In this document: piece by piece, positions 24,223 to 56,151 of the stretch
Position numbering within the stretch: the first letter of the stretch is position 1
Layout: each line of letters opens with the position of its first letter
Assembly: GCA_944322885.1 (NCBI GenBank)
Contig: CALUQH010000005.1
Coordinates: 1 to 64,000, forward strand
Direction: 5' to 3'
Source of the DNA: Candidatus Gastranaerophilales bacterium
GTDB lineage: Bacteria > Cyanobacteriota > Vampirovibrionia > Gastranaerophilales > Gastranaerophilaceae
DNA length: 64,000 bases
Made by a program: the position numbers and the translations under genes
The notes under the pieces: generated by a model
What the model saw: only the letters and a program-made list of their open reading frames with translations
What the model was told of the DNA's origin: nothing
The model's database searches: none

Positions 24223-24945
24223 TTATTTCCAAAAAGCGTTATCATACAAAGCCCTATTTGTACATGCTATACCATTTTTATTGTTAGAAGCTCCTTTTGA
24301 ACAATAAGTTTCCTCGTCATAATCAGTACCATCAGCCCCCATTGGCAAAAGTTTACCATTATCCATTAATTGAAATGTAAATGTATCCTCTCCCCATTTG
24401 TTGGGAAGCTTACGATAACCGTTTACATCAACCGTAACATAAACTTCACCATGAAAAGCACTCGAGTTTGTGTTTTCAAACAGTAACATCGAACCGTCAG
24501 TTAATATAAGCTGTCCATCATCAAAAAAATCTTCATTTGCGGTATTTCCTGAATAAGTTTTGTATGTAAATTTACCGTCAGCAGTATAAGTACCATTTTG
24601 TAAACATAATACATTGCCGCTTATCCCCTGCTGTGCGCCACAGTCAACCAGAATTTTTAAATATGGCTTAAGATAAGAATAAAATGCGGACTGCCTACGA
24701 GAACAATCAGATTTTGTGAGCGCTTCACCGTTATCCTCTTTGTATCTATCCAGAGCCTGCAGCAAAACAGAATACCCCTTATTTAGACCGCTCTGAAATT
24801 GTTTTTTCCTATAATTCGCAACCAGAGAAGGTATTGTCATAGCAGCAACAATACCGATAATACCAAGGGTAATTAACACCTCAGCTAACGTAAAACCGTA
24901 TCGGGAGCCTAGAATCGCCCCCCCCCCGAAATTTCGGGCAAACAT
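24223..24945 (-). CDS. Orphan type II/IV pseudopilin A (frame broken at a G10 tract)
   Basis: Type IV pilin-like protein with the prepilin cleavage motif G|FTLAEVLITLGIIGIVAAMTI, a helical spine, and the family C-terminal signature VDVNGYRKLPNKWGEDTFTF near residue 170. It would be processed by the PilD-type peptidase at 59061. The ATG at 24945 lacks a usable SD. The properly spaced SD (AAAGGAG) and promoter serve an ATG at 24965. That frame runs through ten G and stops at TAG; with eleven G it would enter the pilin frame exactly. As written the gene is probably off, or is expressed through slippage. The coordinates give the longest pilin-frame reading; the true start is probably 24965. Confidence 0.85.
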   Translation of the reverse strand: MFARNFGGGAILGSRYGFTLAEVLITLGIIGIVAAMTIPSLVANYRKKQFQSGLNKGYSVLLQALDRYKEDNGEALTKSDCSRRQSAFYSYLKPYLKILVDCGAQQGISGNVLCLQNGTYTADGKFTYKTYSGNTANEDFFDDGQLILTDGSMLLFENTNSSAFHGEVYVTVDVNGYRKLPNKWGEDTFTFQLMDNGKLLPMGADGTDYDEETYCSKGASNNKNGIACTNRALYDNAFWK

Positions 24946-24965
24946 AAATCTTCAAAATTTTTCAT
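24909..24965 (-). other. SD-led short ORF blocking pseudopilin A
   Basis: From ATG 24965 (SD AAAGGAG, six-base spacer) the frame reads MKNFEDLCLPEISGGGRF and stops at 24911-24909, just past the G10 run. One extra G fuses it to pseudopilin A with a leader of about 24 residues. It could instead act as a regulatory upstream ORF. Confidence 0.7.
24918..24927. repeat. C10/G10 homopolymer in the pseudopilin A leader
   Basis: Ten consecutive C on the plus strand (G in the gene sense) inside AT-rich DNA. It is flanked by AGAATCG and GAAATTTC; part of the right flank forms the 14-base palindrome CCCGAAATTTCGGG. It is a near-copy of the tract at 55311-55320. Confidence 0.95.
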
Positions 24966-25002
24966 TAAGTACTCCTTTACCGATTTAAATATTCTTTTTA
25001 TT

Positions 25003-25031
25003 ATTATAGCATTATATAATATAAAAAACAA
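25003..25031 (-). promoter_or_regulatory. Promoter of pseudopilin A
   Basis: Minus strand: TTGTTT (25031-25026), 17-base spacer, perfect TATAAT (25008-25003). It lies across the 3' end of mlaE and gives a leader of about 35 bases that holds the SD for the ATG at 24965. Confidence 0.6.
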
Positions 25032-28467: not shown

Positions 28468-29298
28468 TTAATAATTCATTTCCCAATTGTTATTTAATAT
28501 CTCGTCAAAACAGTATGATGCATCTCCTTGTCGACCTATACTTGTTGCAGATTGACACTTTTCAAGATTTGATTTCTGAACCTGAGGCTTAATATTAGGA
28601 GATACTAATTCTCCTTCAGTAATCGGATAACGACCTGCAACTAATTCGCCACCCACAACCGGATAACGCTCTAAATATTGGTTCAGACTTAAAAGAGGAC
28701 TTCTCAGAGCAGAAGAAATTGTTCCGTCAGAATATATTCCTGCTATAAACAAATCCCTGCCAACAGTATTTGGGCCCTTCTTCCCATTAACATCAATTAT
28801 CAAATCCCCAATTAAACCTTCTATATAATTAAGGTTCATTGCCTGAATGGGACGTGAACTACTAAAATATTTTAAGGATACATTATACTTTGCACAAATA
28901 GCAGCACCGCTTGAAAGAGCAAAACAAGAAGCCGTTGTATCTGCATAAGCCGTAACTGCACCGCCGCTAATATTTTTATAGCTGTCTGCCAAACAGTCTG
29001 ACGGAGTTCCTGTACAATCTTTTACAACATTAAACTGGCTTTGTATAAATGTCCTCATAGCATCATCACTACGAACACCAGCCTCCAATAAATTTATAGC
29101 ATTTCGTGAATTTATTTGAGATATTGCGGCCTGCTGAAATTCCGAATAAACTTTTTTTAATTGTGTTACATAAACTTTTCTTTGATGGTTAGAAACTAAC
29201 GTCGGCATTGTCACAGCAGCTACGACCCCGATTACACCAAGAGTTACCAATACCTCAGCGAGAGTAAATCCTGAACTTAACTTACTAAATTCCCCCAA
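28468..29298 (-). CDS. Orphan pseudopilin B (SD-led start out of frame)
   Basis: Pilin-like N-terminus SSG|FTLAEVLVTLGVIGVVAAVT, basic helix (HQRKVYVTQLKKVYSEFQQAA), a Cys-containing globular part and the family signature IDVNGKKGPNTVGRDLFIAG near residue 190. It ends in the family tail FDEILNNNWEMNY. The listed start is a TTG at 29298 without an SD. The real SD (GGAGG) and promoter serve ATG 29308, whose frame meets TAG after seven codons because of the GGGGG run at 29292-29296. Losing one G would give the leader MNIFGEFSKLSSG joined to the pilin. The gene is therefore off, recoded, or decayed as written. Confidence 0.82.
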   Translation of the reverse strand: MGEFSKLSSGFTLAEVLVTLGVIGVVAAVTMPTLVSNHQRKVYVTQLKKVYSEFQQAAISQINSRNAINLLEAGVRSDDAMRTFIQSQFNVVKDCTGTPSDCLADSYKNISGGAVTAYADTTASCFALSSGAAICAKYNVSLKYFSSSRPIQAMNLNYIEGLIGDLIIDVNGKKGPNTVGRDLFIAGIYSDGTISSALRSPLLSLNQYLERYPVVGGELVAGRYPITEGELVSPNIKPQVQKSNLEKCQSATSIGRQGDASYCFDEILNNNWEMNY

Positions 29299-32198: not shown

Positions 32199-32931
32199 TT
32201 ACCAGGGATAATCGCCTTTTATTTCCCAACCGTCAGCCATAATCAGTGCAGCACACCACATCCCGCGTCCCTGCTTGTTACATTGATAAGCATACGCGCT
32301 GGGTCCGTCTCTAAATTCATCTCGAGCTCTAACAACATCAGTAGATTCACTATCATCATGAGAATGAGCTATTACTCCCTTTTCAGTAACAGAAAACATA
32401 AATAAATCTCTTCCGAATTTATTAGGCCTTTTAAAACCGTTTAAATCCACAGCAAAACCTTTTCTTTTAATTGAAGTAGCTGTAGAAGCTGTCTTAGACA
32501 GAAAAATTTGAGTACCTGAGGGTAAAGTTACAATATCAGCATTATCATACATCTGAATAAGAGATTTTTCTACTGATCCTGATGTTCCGTAATATATTAT
32601 TCCTTGTTGTCGCGCATTACCTACTGTTATACTAGATATTTCCATATAAGAAGATAAATATTTTTTAAAAAAGTCTGAACCGCTTATTGAATAATCCCAT
32701 AAAGAAGGATCCCCATATTCCAATTTAGCCATTTCTGCAGCTTGTGCTAACTCTGAATAAACTTTCTTTAACCGGGTAACTGTTTGTTTTTTTCTGGTAA
32801 TTTACAATTAATAAAGGTAAAGTCATTGCGGCAACAACGCCGATTATCCCCAGAGTAATTAATACTTCCGCAAGCGTAAATCCTTTAAAGGAGCCTAGAC
32901 CGAAGCTGTTGGATTTGATTTTATATTCCAT
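32199..32931 (-). pseudogene. Orphan pseudopilin C split by a frameshift at an A7 run
   Basis: The first frame (32931 to 32725) starts at an ATG with a good SD (AAAGGAG) and encodes KG|FTLAEVLITLGIIGVVAAMTL, then goes out of frame. The second frame (to 32199) carries the rest, including the signature VDLNGFKRPNKFGRDLFMF and the tail IMADGWEIKGDYPW. The break is at seven A (plus-strand T run 32787-32793). With six A the junction becomes NYQKKQTVTRLKKVYSELAQ, matching the intact pseudopilin E. Everything else is in order. It may be a recent pseudogene, a phase-off allele, or rescued by polymerase slippage on the A run. Confidence 0.85.
32787..32793. repeat. A7/T7 run at the pseudopilin C frameshift
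   Basis: Seven T on the plus strand (A in the gene sense) at exactly the place where the two pseudopilin reading frames must join. One base fewer restores the frame. Confidence 0.85.
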
Positions 32932-42602: not shown

Positions 42603-43340
42603 TTGAATAATAGAAAGCAGAGAGGTTTATTAATAAAAAGAGGATTTACGCTTGCAGAGGTGCTTGTTACATTAGGAATTATAGGAGTAGTTTGTGCGCT
42701 TACCTTACCATCACTGGTTGAAAAACATCAAAAACAGGCGACAATTACAAAGTTAAAGAAAATATATTCAGTTCTATCTCAGCAAATTATGCTTGCTAAT
42801 TCTCAAACTACACCGGCAAATGAATTTTTAACTGCAGGGAATGAAGTTGAAGCAGATAAGACCGAAGAATTTTTTCAAACATACTGGGTTCCATACTTTA
42901 AAGGAGTAACCATCTTAAATAGCAGACCGTATAGTACACAATTTCCGTATAAATATATGAATGGAGATATGTTAGAAATTACAATAAAAACCGGATTTTC
43001 CGAGGGACGAATTACTTTTTCTACTTCGGACGGATTTATATTTTTTATATGTGTGATGAAGTGGAAAAATAAAGACGAAAACGGTAATTTAAGTGATCCA
43101 ATATATTCATCTGAAATGAATGTTTATATTGATATAAACGGGTTAAAACATCCAAATACACTTGGGAAAGATATCTTTAGAGTCACAATGAATTACGACA
43201 AAAATAATGTTATGCCATACGGCATTGACAAAAGTTCCAGTGCTATAGATCGCAACTGCAATAAAACAGGCTCCGGAGATTATTGTTTTGCCAAAATTAT
43301 AAAAGACGGCTGGAAAATAACTGATGATTATCCCTGGTAA
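42603..43340 (+). CDS. Orphan pseudopilin D (no ATG start)
   Basis: Pilin-like protein with RG|FTLAEVLVTLGIIGVVCALTL, basic helix, signature IDINGLKHPNTLGKDIFRV and tail IIKDGWKITDDYPW, matching the other five pseudopilins. No ATG lies near the start. The listed TTG at 42603 would give a leader MNNRKQRGLLIKRG without an SD. A clear SD-like AGAGAGG at 42619-42625 is followed seven bases later by ATA (42633-42635), which would give the short leader xKRG. The original ATG may have mutated to ATA. It overlaps the alcohol dehydrogenase gene at its 3' end by 13 bases (convergent). Confidence 0.8.
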   Translation: MNNRKQRGLLIKRGFTLAEVLVTLGIIGVVCALTLPSLVEKHQKQATITKLKKIYSVLSQQIMLANSQTTPANEFLTAGNEVEADKTEEFFQTYWVPYFKGVTILNSRPYSTQFPYKYMNGDMLEITIKTGFSEGRITFSTSDGFIFFICVMKWKNKDENGNLSDPIYSSEMNVYIDINGLKHPNTLGKDIFRVTMNYDKNNVMPYGIDKSSSAIDRNCNKTGSGDYCFAKIIKDGWKITDDYPW

Positions 43341-51263: not shown

Positions 51264-51971
51264 TTAATAATTCATCTGCCAGCCATCAGCCATAATCTTT
51301 CCAAATAACCCGTTATCAGGATGATTTGCTTCCAAATCAGCTTCTTCCCCATTTGCAATATAAAATTTATCAAAAATTTGTCCGTTTTTATCTATTTGAA
51401 ATGAAAAATAATCTCTTCCAAAAACATTAGGTCCCTGCTTACCATTTATATCTACTTCAAATGCAACTACATCACCGCCATTGCCCACATGGTTTGAACT
51501 GGTAATTGAGCTATCATCGTCAGGATCATCATTTTCTACATCTGACATAGCAGAAGCATCTGCACATAGGACAGCCCCGCTTGCCAAAGCTACAACAACA
51601 TTACATTGTCCGTTTTTTGAACTTATAGTAGCACCTGATAAAGATGAATACTCATCCGCAAAACATGGTCTATATCGCGTTCCGCAATCGTTTACAACTT
51701 TAAAATAATTGGTCATAAAATTTCTCAATTCAGTTGAATTATTCCTAATTCTTGATTCTCCAAAATTAAGATAATTATTATCAGTTACATACATTTTAGC
51801 GGCCTGCATAACTTCGTTATATACTTTATGCAATTGTGTCACATAAACTTTACGCTGATAATTTTGTACCAGAGTGGGTATGGTCATTGCAGAAACAACT
51901 CCGATTATACCAAGAGTAACCAAAACTTCAGCCAAAGTAAAACCCGTTTTAATATGTTTAAGTAAAATCAT
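51264..51971 (-). CDS. Orphan pseudopilin E (intact)
   Basis: The only one of the six pseudopilins here that is complete from an SD-led ATG. SD AAAGGAAG precedes MILLKHIKTG|FTLAEVLVTLGIIGVVSAMTI, a short leader typical of prepilins. A basic helix (QRKVYVTQLHKVYNEVMQAA), a globular part with four cysteines, an acidic loop (DDPDDDSSI), the family signature VDINGKQGPNVFGRDYFSF and the tail IMADGWQMNY follow. It would be cleaved by PilD and assembled into a pilus or secretion pseudopilus. It is monocistronic, next to the HTH gene at 52079. No minor-pilin or GspF genes are adjacent. Confidence 0.92.
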   Translation of the reverse strand: MILLKHIKTGFTLAEVLVTLGIIGVVSAMTIPTLVQNYQRKVYVTQLHKVYNEVMQAAKMYVTDNNYLNFGESRIRNNSTELRNFMTNYFKVVNDCGTRYRPCFADEYSSLSGATISSKNGQCNVVVALASGAVLCADASAMSDVENDDPDDDSSITSSNHVGNGGDVVAFEVDINGKQGPNVFGRDYFSFQIDKNGQIFDKFYIANGEEADLEANHPDNGLFGKIMADGWQMNY

Positions 51972-55250: not shown

Positions 55251-55285
55251 AAAAACATAAATTTTTTAAATTTAGGAGGAAAACA

Positions 55286-55336
55286 ATGATATTAAGAGAG
55301 CTGAGAATTGCCCCCCCCCCGAAAATTCAAGTATAG
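55286..55336 (+). other. SD-led short ORF blocking pseudopilin F
   Basis: From ATG 55286 the frame reads MILRELRIAPPPKIQV and stops at TAG 55334-55336, just past the C10 tract. With eleven C it stays open for 36 codons and joins the pseudopilin F frame at 55393 without a stop. Confidence 0.7.
55311..55320. repeat. C10 homopolymer upstream of pseudopilin F
   Basis: Ten C on the plus strand flanked by AGAATTG and GAAAATTC, near-identical to the flanks of the tract at 24918-24927, and also in a pseudopilin leader. Only these two runs of eight or more G/C were noticed in the window. Confidence 0.95.
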
Positions 55337-55392: not shown

Positions 55393-56151
55393 ATGATACA
55401 TCATATAAATAAACCTGGTTTTACTCTTGCGGAAGTTTTAATTACCTTAGGTATTATCGGAGTCGTTGCAGCAATGACTATGCCGGCATTGATTACCAAT
55501 CATAAATATATGGTTCTGCAAAATCAATTTAAAGCAGCATATTCTGATTTAAATCAGGCCGCTAAACTTTTTCAGGTACATAATGACATGTACGTAGGTG
55601 AATATGCCGCAAGCTATACTTCGAAAGATGCTTTAAATGAATTTTCGAAAGAATTTAAAACAGTTTTAAAAACTTCTAATCTAATGTACGATTCTACTGA
55701 TGACGAGGGTACCAGTATTGGTGCAAGACCATGGCATTGGAGATCAATAAGTGGAAGCACTTCCGGCGGCACAGTATCAGCTTGTGATGTAAGCGGTTTT
55801 TTCTGGGATCCTCAAGGTCGGGTAATATCATTTGACGATCCTCCACTTTCAGGAGACAACGGGCCTAAAATTTGTATTGATATAAACGGAGAAAAAGCAC
55901 CTAATCGATACGGGGCAGATTTTTTTATCTTTATGTTTACAACAGACGGATATGTTATTCCATGGGGACAGGAGCACAAAGATAATCCAGAAAAGACCAG
56001 CGGGAATGGGAACTATACCGTTTCAAAAACAATATGCAAATATACTTCATCCATAACTGATCAGCTGGCCTGTTCAAACTATGCTCTTATTAACCGGCAC
56101 CCGACAGATTCAGGTAAAGATTACTGGCATGATTTTGTCAGAGGAAGATAA
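55393..56151 (+). CDS. Orphan pseudopilin F (C10 tract upstream keeps it out of frame)
   Basis: Prepilin motif KPG|FTLAEVLITLGIIGVVAAMTM, helix with QNQFKAAYSDLNQAAKLF, signature IDINGEKAPNRYGADFFIF near residue 165, and a Cys-containing C-terminus. The ATG at 55393 gives a typical nine-residue leader but has no SD. A weak -35/-10 (TTTACT-17-AATAAT) six bases upstream could make a leaderless message from it. The stronger promoter and SD belong to the ATG at 55286, which is one base out of frame because of the C10 tract. Expression may therefore switch with tract length. It converges on pyrG with nine bases between. Confidence 0.83.
   Translation: MIHHINKPGFTLAEVLITLGIIGVVAAMTMPALITNHKYMVLQNQFKAAYSDLNQAAKLFQVHNDMYVGEYAASYTSKDALNEFSKEFKTVLKTSNLMYDSTDDEGTSIGARPWHWRSISGSTSGGTVSACDVSGFFWDPQGRVISFDDPPLSGDNGPKICIDINGEKAPNRYGADFFIFMFTTDGYVIPWGQEHKDNPEKTSGNGNYTVSKTICKYTSSITDQLACSNYALINRHPTDSGKDYWHDFVRGR

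Follow-up and report, generated by a model that had tools for sequence, protein, structure and literature searches.

Poly-G tracts of length ten in the leaders of type IV pilin-like genes of a Gastranaerophilales bacterium: a probable genome-wide set of contingency switches oriented with replication

The described system closest to the one considered here is the pilus of the gut commensal B. breve, in which G10/G11 tracts lie near the pilus gene start, the annotated length is off-frame and slippage by one base fuses two open reading frames (ORFs); its G10 tract, although of a single length in 93% of cases, is still a switch (PMC9187656). Intragenic G/C runs in surface genes, including those for sugar-modifying enzymes, also characterize Campylobacter jejuni NCTC11168, with 29 poly-G/C loci bearing tracts of seven or more (PMC4965091), and Neisseria meningitidis, with 115 phase-variable genes (PMC5084427). 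The tracts of a Gastranaerophilales genome analysed here resemble all of these, and differ from them in several respects. Whereas B. breve has two loci, with unrelated pilins, that are turned on by the loss of one base, genomes of the present genus carry up to 176 tracts each, which are oriented with replication and would be turned on by the gain of one base. Likewise, the repertoires of C. jejuni and N. meningitidis span mixed gene classes, whereas the present one is mostly confined to one pilin family, one length, one frame offset and a replichore-tied orientation. A search of the open-access literature returned no report of phase variation in the Gastranaerophilales; the poly-G contingency locus is a known kind of element, but the scale, the shared off-by-one relation, the sharp length and the lock to replication are new to us.

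The whole stretch of DNA analysed, 64,000 nucleotides and hereafter the window, would be expected to contain a run of eight or more G only 0.2 times; its six G8 matches come from only two runs, each exactly 10 long. The features of the two loci are:

25003..25031, minus strand: promoter-like TTGTTT-17-TATAAT (TTGTTT at 25031-25026, then 17 nt, then TATAAT at 25008-25003), lying partly within the end of the MlaE-type permease gene upstream; read directly
24972..24978, minus strand: Shine-Dalgarno sequence (SD) AAAGGAG, 6 nt before the ATG; read directly
24963..24965, minus strand: start codon ATG of the leader ORF, at a position conserved in genome G003
24918..24927, minus strand: G10 tract (C-G10-C) in the leader, also G10 in the G003 ortholog
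24909..24911, minus strand: TAG closing the leader ORF at G10, with CGATTC between tract and TAG
24223..24945, minus strand: type IV pilin-like gene (N_methyl/TIGR02532), read from ATG 24965 only at a tract length of 2 mod 3
55274..55279, plus strand: SD AGGAGG of the second tract gene; read directly
55286..55288, plus strand: ATG starting the second leader ORF, with the tract 25 nt further on
55311..55320, plus strand: C10 tract of the second leader, reading as G10 on the minus strand
55334..55336, plus strand: TAG closing the second leader ORF at C10; read directly
55393..56151, plus strand: pilin-like gene of the second locus, continuous with ATG 55286 only at a tract length of 2 mod 3

The promoter, SD, ATG 24965, G10 run and TAG that the original prediction placed at the first locus are all present on the minus strand, and the TATAAT region is found again in the G003 ortholog (86% identical). 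Its central claim, that a single added G would join the leader ORF to the pilin frame, is borne out by the frame reading: with one extra G the frame from ATG 24965 reads MKNFEDLCLPEISGGGAILGSRYGFTLAEVLITL and continues into the pilin with no other change. A further start codon that it had passed over, ATG 24945, lies in the pilin frame at G10 and opens an ORF of 240 aa; its SD is weak and the G003 ortholog has ACG at the same place, and we accordingly rejected it as improbable. At the second locus, too, a single base is missing for the leader to run into the pilin, which begins near 55393. The G's of both tracts are on the minus strand, yet the two genes point in opposite directions.

Both encoded proteins match PF07963 (E values of 1.3e-5 and 1.1e-5) and score above the cut-off of TIGR02532, in keeping with a prepilin cleavage/N-methylation motif; they could not be assigned to a named pilin such as GspG, ComGC or PilA, as every equivalog model fell under its cut-off. 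More pilin-like genes, these without a tract, are found in the window at 28468-29298, 32821-32886, 42636-42701 and 51264-51971, some with a start codon just ahead of the GFTLAEV motif.

The two loci belong to a genome-wide set. The source assembly (1.86 Mb in 40 contigs) has 70 G runs of at least 8, of which 58 are of 10, 5 of 11, 3 of 9 and 4 of 8, and 66 of at least 9; a C precedes nearly all runs of at least 8. PF07963 recovers 80 pilin N-termini, and for 50 of the 80 a tract lies at most 450 nt upstream, giving about 50 tract-bearing pilins; the G10 tract is usually found 25-35 nt downstream of an SD-ATG. The few carriers other than pilins include glycosyltransferases and others with surface or surface-modifying roles (GT2, polysaccharide pyruvyl transferase). 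Across the order, relatives of the genus have 0-6 runs per genome. Contig ends or gaps often fall exactly at tracts (G004, G014, G030, G010 and others, with an N gap after the tract in L203), so that tract counts per genome are probably underestimates.

Loci were classified by the tract length at which an SD-bearing start and the pilin motif are joined in one open frame. In the window's genome 58 loci could be placed; 53 need a length of 2 mod 3, and 46 of these 53 are G10, hence off by one. The same need is seen in 52 of 53 G10 loci of G007 and in 39 of 42 sampled from other genomes of the genus, which brings the G10 pilin loci with this one-base deficit to 137 of the 144 classified. The stretch between tract and pilin motif is open in the pilin frame, with 5 stops in 1800 codons versus 177 in 1779 and 128 in 1755 in the other two, and even leaders of more than 100 codons remain open in it; this argues that the fused protein is selected for and made at least sometimes. 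The off-frame stop at G10 follows the tract by 4-13 nt in 64 of 66 sense loci; for the antisense loci the distance is 7-14 nt in 27 of 32. All assemblies examined have the majority of their pilins off, and on-phase genes occur among the G11 and G8 loci of the window's genome. Shifted frames are commoner at G11 (17 of 52, compared with 7 of 144 at G10; p about 1e-6, for sampled loci that are not fully independent and of which one was possibly counted twice), and there are pilins with a frame set for 10, for which storage at 11 is relatively more frequent. The stored states lean to off, while a length of 10 is preferred even where 10 is on.

In many leaders (L043, L073, L094, L180 and others), an apparent former pilin promoter and start lie between the tract and the pilin motif (CYNSDMKHH = TGCTATAATAGTGATATG...), an SD-ATG standing before FTLAEV and after the promoter; to judge from these sequences, it looks as if the tract module had been inserted upstream of an older gene start. 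Those of L033, L066, L127 and L170 consist partly of dispersed repeat text (RTYSPIDLFTYSLKK, HCEGVKRPWQSQN) and sometimes hold the pilin motif a second time, as a decoy (AFTLAEGATHVA), with the pilin frame open throughout.

The orientation of the tracts follows the replichore and not the gene. On contigs with several tracts, neighbours have the G's on the same strand in 38 of 39 pairs, with one switch, while the strands of the pilin genes are the same in 13 and switched in 14. In both G026 (5 contigs) and G007 (8 contigs) the tracts are arranged as two long, oppositely oriented blocks between which the orientation changes once in each direction; a few tracts of G026 depart from this. The sign of the GC skew in G007 matches the G strand in 27 of 28 tract-bearing stretches of 20 kb, and the skew flips where the orientation flips; the G run thus lies on the leading, G-rich strand, which is to say in the lagging-strand template. 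Leader codons are accordingly GGG in genes on the G strand and CCC in genes on the other. Oriented chromosomal motifs whose strand bias switches at the origin and terminus are familiar from KOPS and Chi. Those motifs are short and occur very frequently across all genes, whereas the present tracts number about 60 and lie nearly all in pilin leaders.

As to tract length, in 32 genomes of the genus, G002 excluded, 1609 of 1945 runs of at least 9 (83%) are exactly 10 and 135 are 11; the share of exact tens rises to 95-96% in G007 and G027. Over loci and species the range is 8-11, the exceptions being G002, a member of the genus, and G033, of a sister genus, in which pilin-leader tracts are 9-16 long, have differing flanks and show no block orientation. 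The original prediction had left the length in related genomes to be checked: it is mostly 10 there too, the G003 ortholog included, but varies in these two. All their classified examples are sense, and some tracts lie mid-way in ordinary genes (among L216-L245 in G002 and L356-L385 in G033); the pair looks like a more classical phase-variable set within the same family. The sharp length of 10 thus goes together with the lock to replication, and variable tracts exist nearby. Loss of mismatch repair was rejected as a cause, since 32 of 33 genomes, among them G002 with its variable tracts, have MutS1; given MutS1, slippage need not be extreme. The C-G10-C context occurs in both gene orientations, and TC-G10-CA is conserved; in pilins a CTNAGCT-like stretch follows, and beyond TC-G10-CA the flanks are weak outside pilins. 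These flanks may reflect descent of the leaders, selection for a prompt stop or a bound factor. A scan of IMG/VR with the sense motif returned no match.

We consider it probable that the G10 tract belongs to a set of poly-G contingency switches spanning the genome, off at 10 and turned on at 11 (or 8) by replication slippage. With the tract past the start codon of the leader ORF, translation at length 10 stops a few codons later, and at 11 or 8 continues into the intact pilin, alike for about 50 pilins. Slippage by one base in a minority of cells would then leave each cell expressing a small, random and heritable subset of pilins, with most off at the resting length of 10; the few non-pilin carriers, such as glycosyltransferases, are set the opposite way, on at the stored length. 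The original prediction, in proposing a contingency locus, gains strength from the same one-base deficit in dozens of pilin genes here and in most genomes of the genus, but what it took for a single locus is a genome-wide, replication-locked system. Against the switch stand the length peak at 10, which is unusually sharp for freely slipping tracts, the near-universal presence of MutS1 and the off state of most pilins in all assemblies, and plain slippage does not account for the conserved flanks or the replication lock.

The principal rival is programmed recoding, by which the DNA would be fixed at 10 and a little of each pilin made in every cell, either through RNA polymerase slippage that adds one G or C to the RNA, the main form of this rival, or through a -1 ribosomal frameshift. 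The uniform one-base deficit, the sharp length, the presence of MutS and the suitability of all-G or all-C runs as a -1 slippery pattern all speak for it, yet we regard it as distinctly unlikely: because orientation tracks replication, the mRNA has G10 in some genes and C10 in others, about a third of the sampled G11 loci need 10 or 9/12, which a fixed -1 shift generally would not express, and in-frame glycosyltransferases could only lose by it. The ribosomal form was rejected, as no structure after the tract (mean z of 0.02 and -0.34) and no SD-like stimulator was seen at 98 loci and the frame relation is inconsistent, with G11 loci showing needs of 0, 1 and 2. As the stored states lean to off and 10 is preferred even where it is on, a resting length at the level of DNA fits better than fixed recoding. 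Strict replication orientation and the C-G10-C context with common flanks in both gene orientations would also suit a DNA element with another job, such as a replication-oriented binding or recombination site that swaps pilin 5' ends, the frame effect being secondary. This we hold quite improbable, given that pilin leaders and a few surface-glycan genes account for almost all tracts, which nearly always lie inside a reading frame, that the off-by-one is common to 95%, and that the flanks past TC-G10-CA are weak outside pilins.

The non-pilin carriers bear on a further rival, which the original prediction had named as its main alternative: an assembly or basecalling error, with a true length of 11 called as 10. 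G runs are indeed poorly handled by Illumina reads (PMC9187656), and contigs sometimes stop at tracts. However, the stored C-G10-C run is in frame in two GT2 genes, a hydrogenase-beta/pyruvyl-transferase fusion, an RHS-like protein and one more gene, as is a stored G8 in a radical-SAM gene; length 10 is therefore not dictated by the pilin frame, and a miscalled 11 would leave these genes disrupted. Some pilins, too, are in frame at 10. Independent loci moreover share the length of 10, and so do genomes obtained in several studies and with several assemblers, while tracts as long as G16 are reported in G002 and G033. Such an error is thus very unlikely, to the point of being scarcely credible, and a frameshift private to one locus was rejected as very unlikely in view of the genome-wide pattern and the in-frame carriers. 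In another carrier, L088 (G000:C31:44012), the leader frame at G10 ends in a TAA that overlaps the ATG of a GT2 glycosyltransferase (AATGCCTAA), an arrangement that suggests translational coupling rather than fusion.

More speculatively, a dedicated replication-coupled system might keep the leading-strand C-G10-C at exactly 10 across dozens to more than 100 pilins per genome, with a controlled +1 event, in DNA or RNA, and not free slippage giving expression. We put this forward tentatively, as somewhat unlikely; if it were true, one factor could open the whole pilin repertoire or pick its members.

On the preferred reading of slippage switches, the tracts look like a genome-wide off/on control of surface fibres. 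In metagenome-assembled genomes, the genes concerned have probably been annotated as fragments or with incorrect starts, which would hide the system. The link of tract orientation with replication direction and a fixed length provides a natural setting in which to test how slippage depends on the direction of the fork. The set would be among the largest single-family contingency repertoires known to us, found in gut bacteria of an uncultured lineage within the cyanobacterial phylum.
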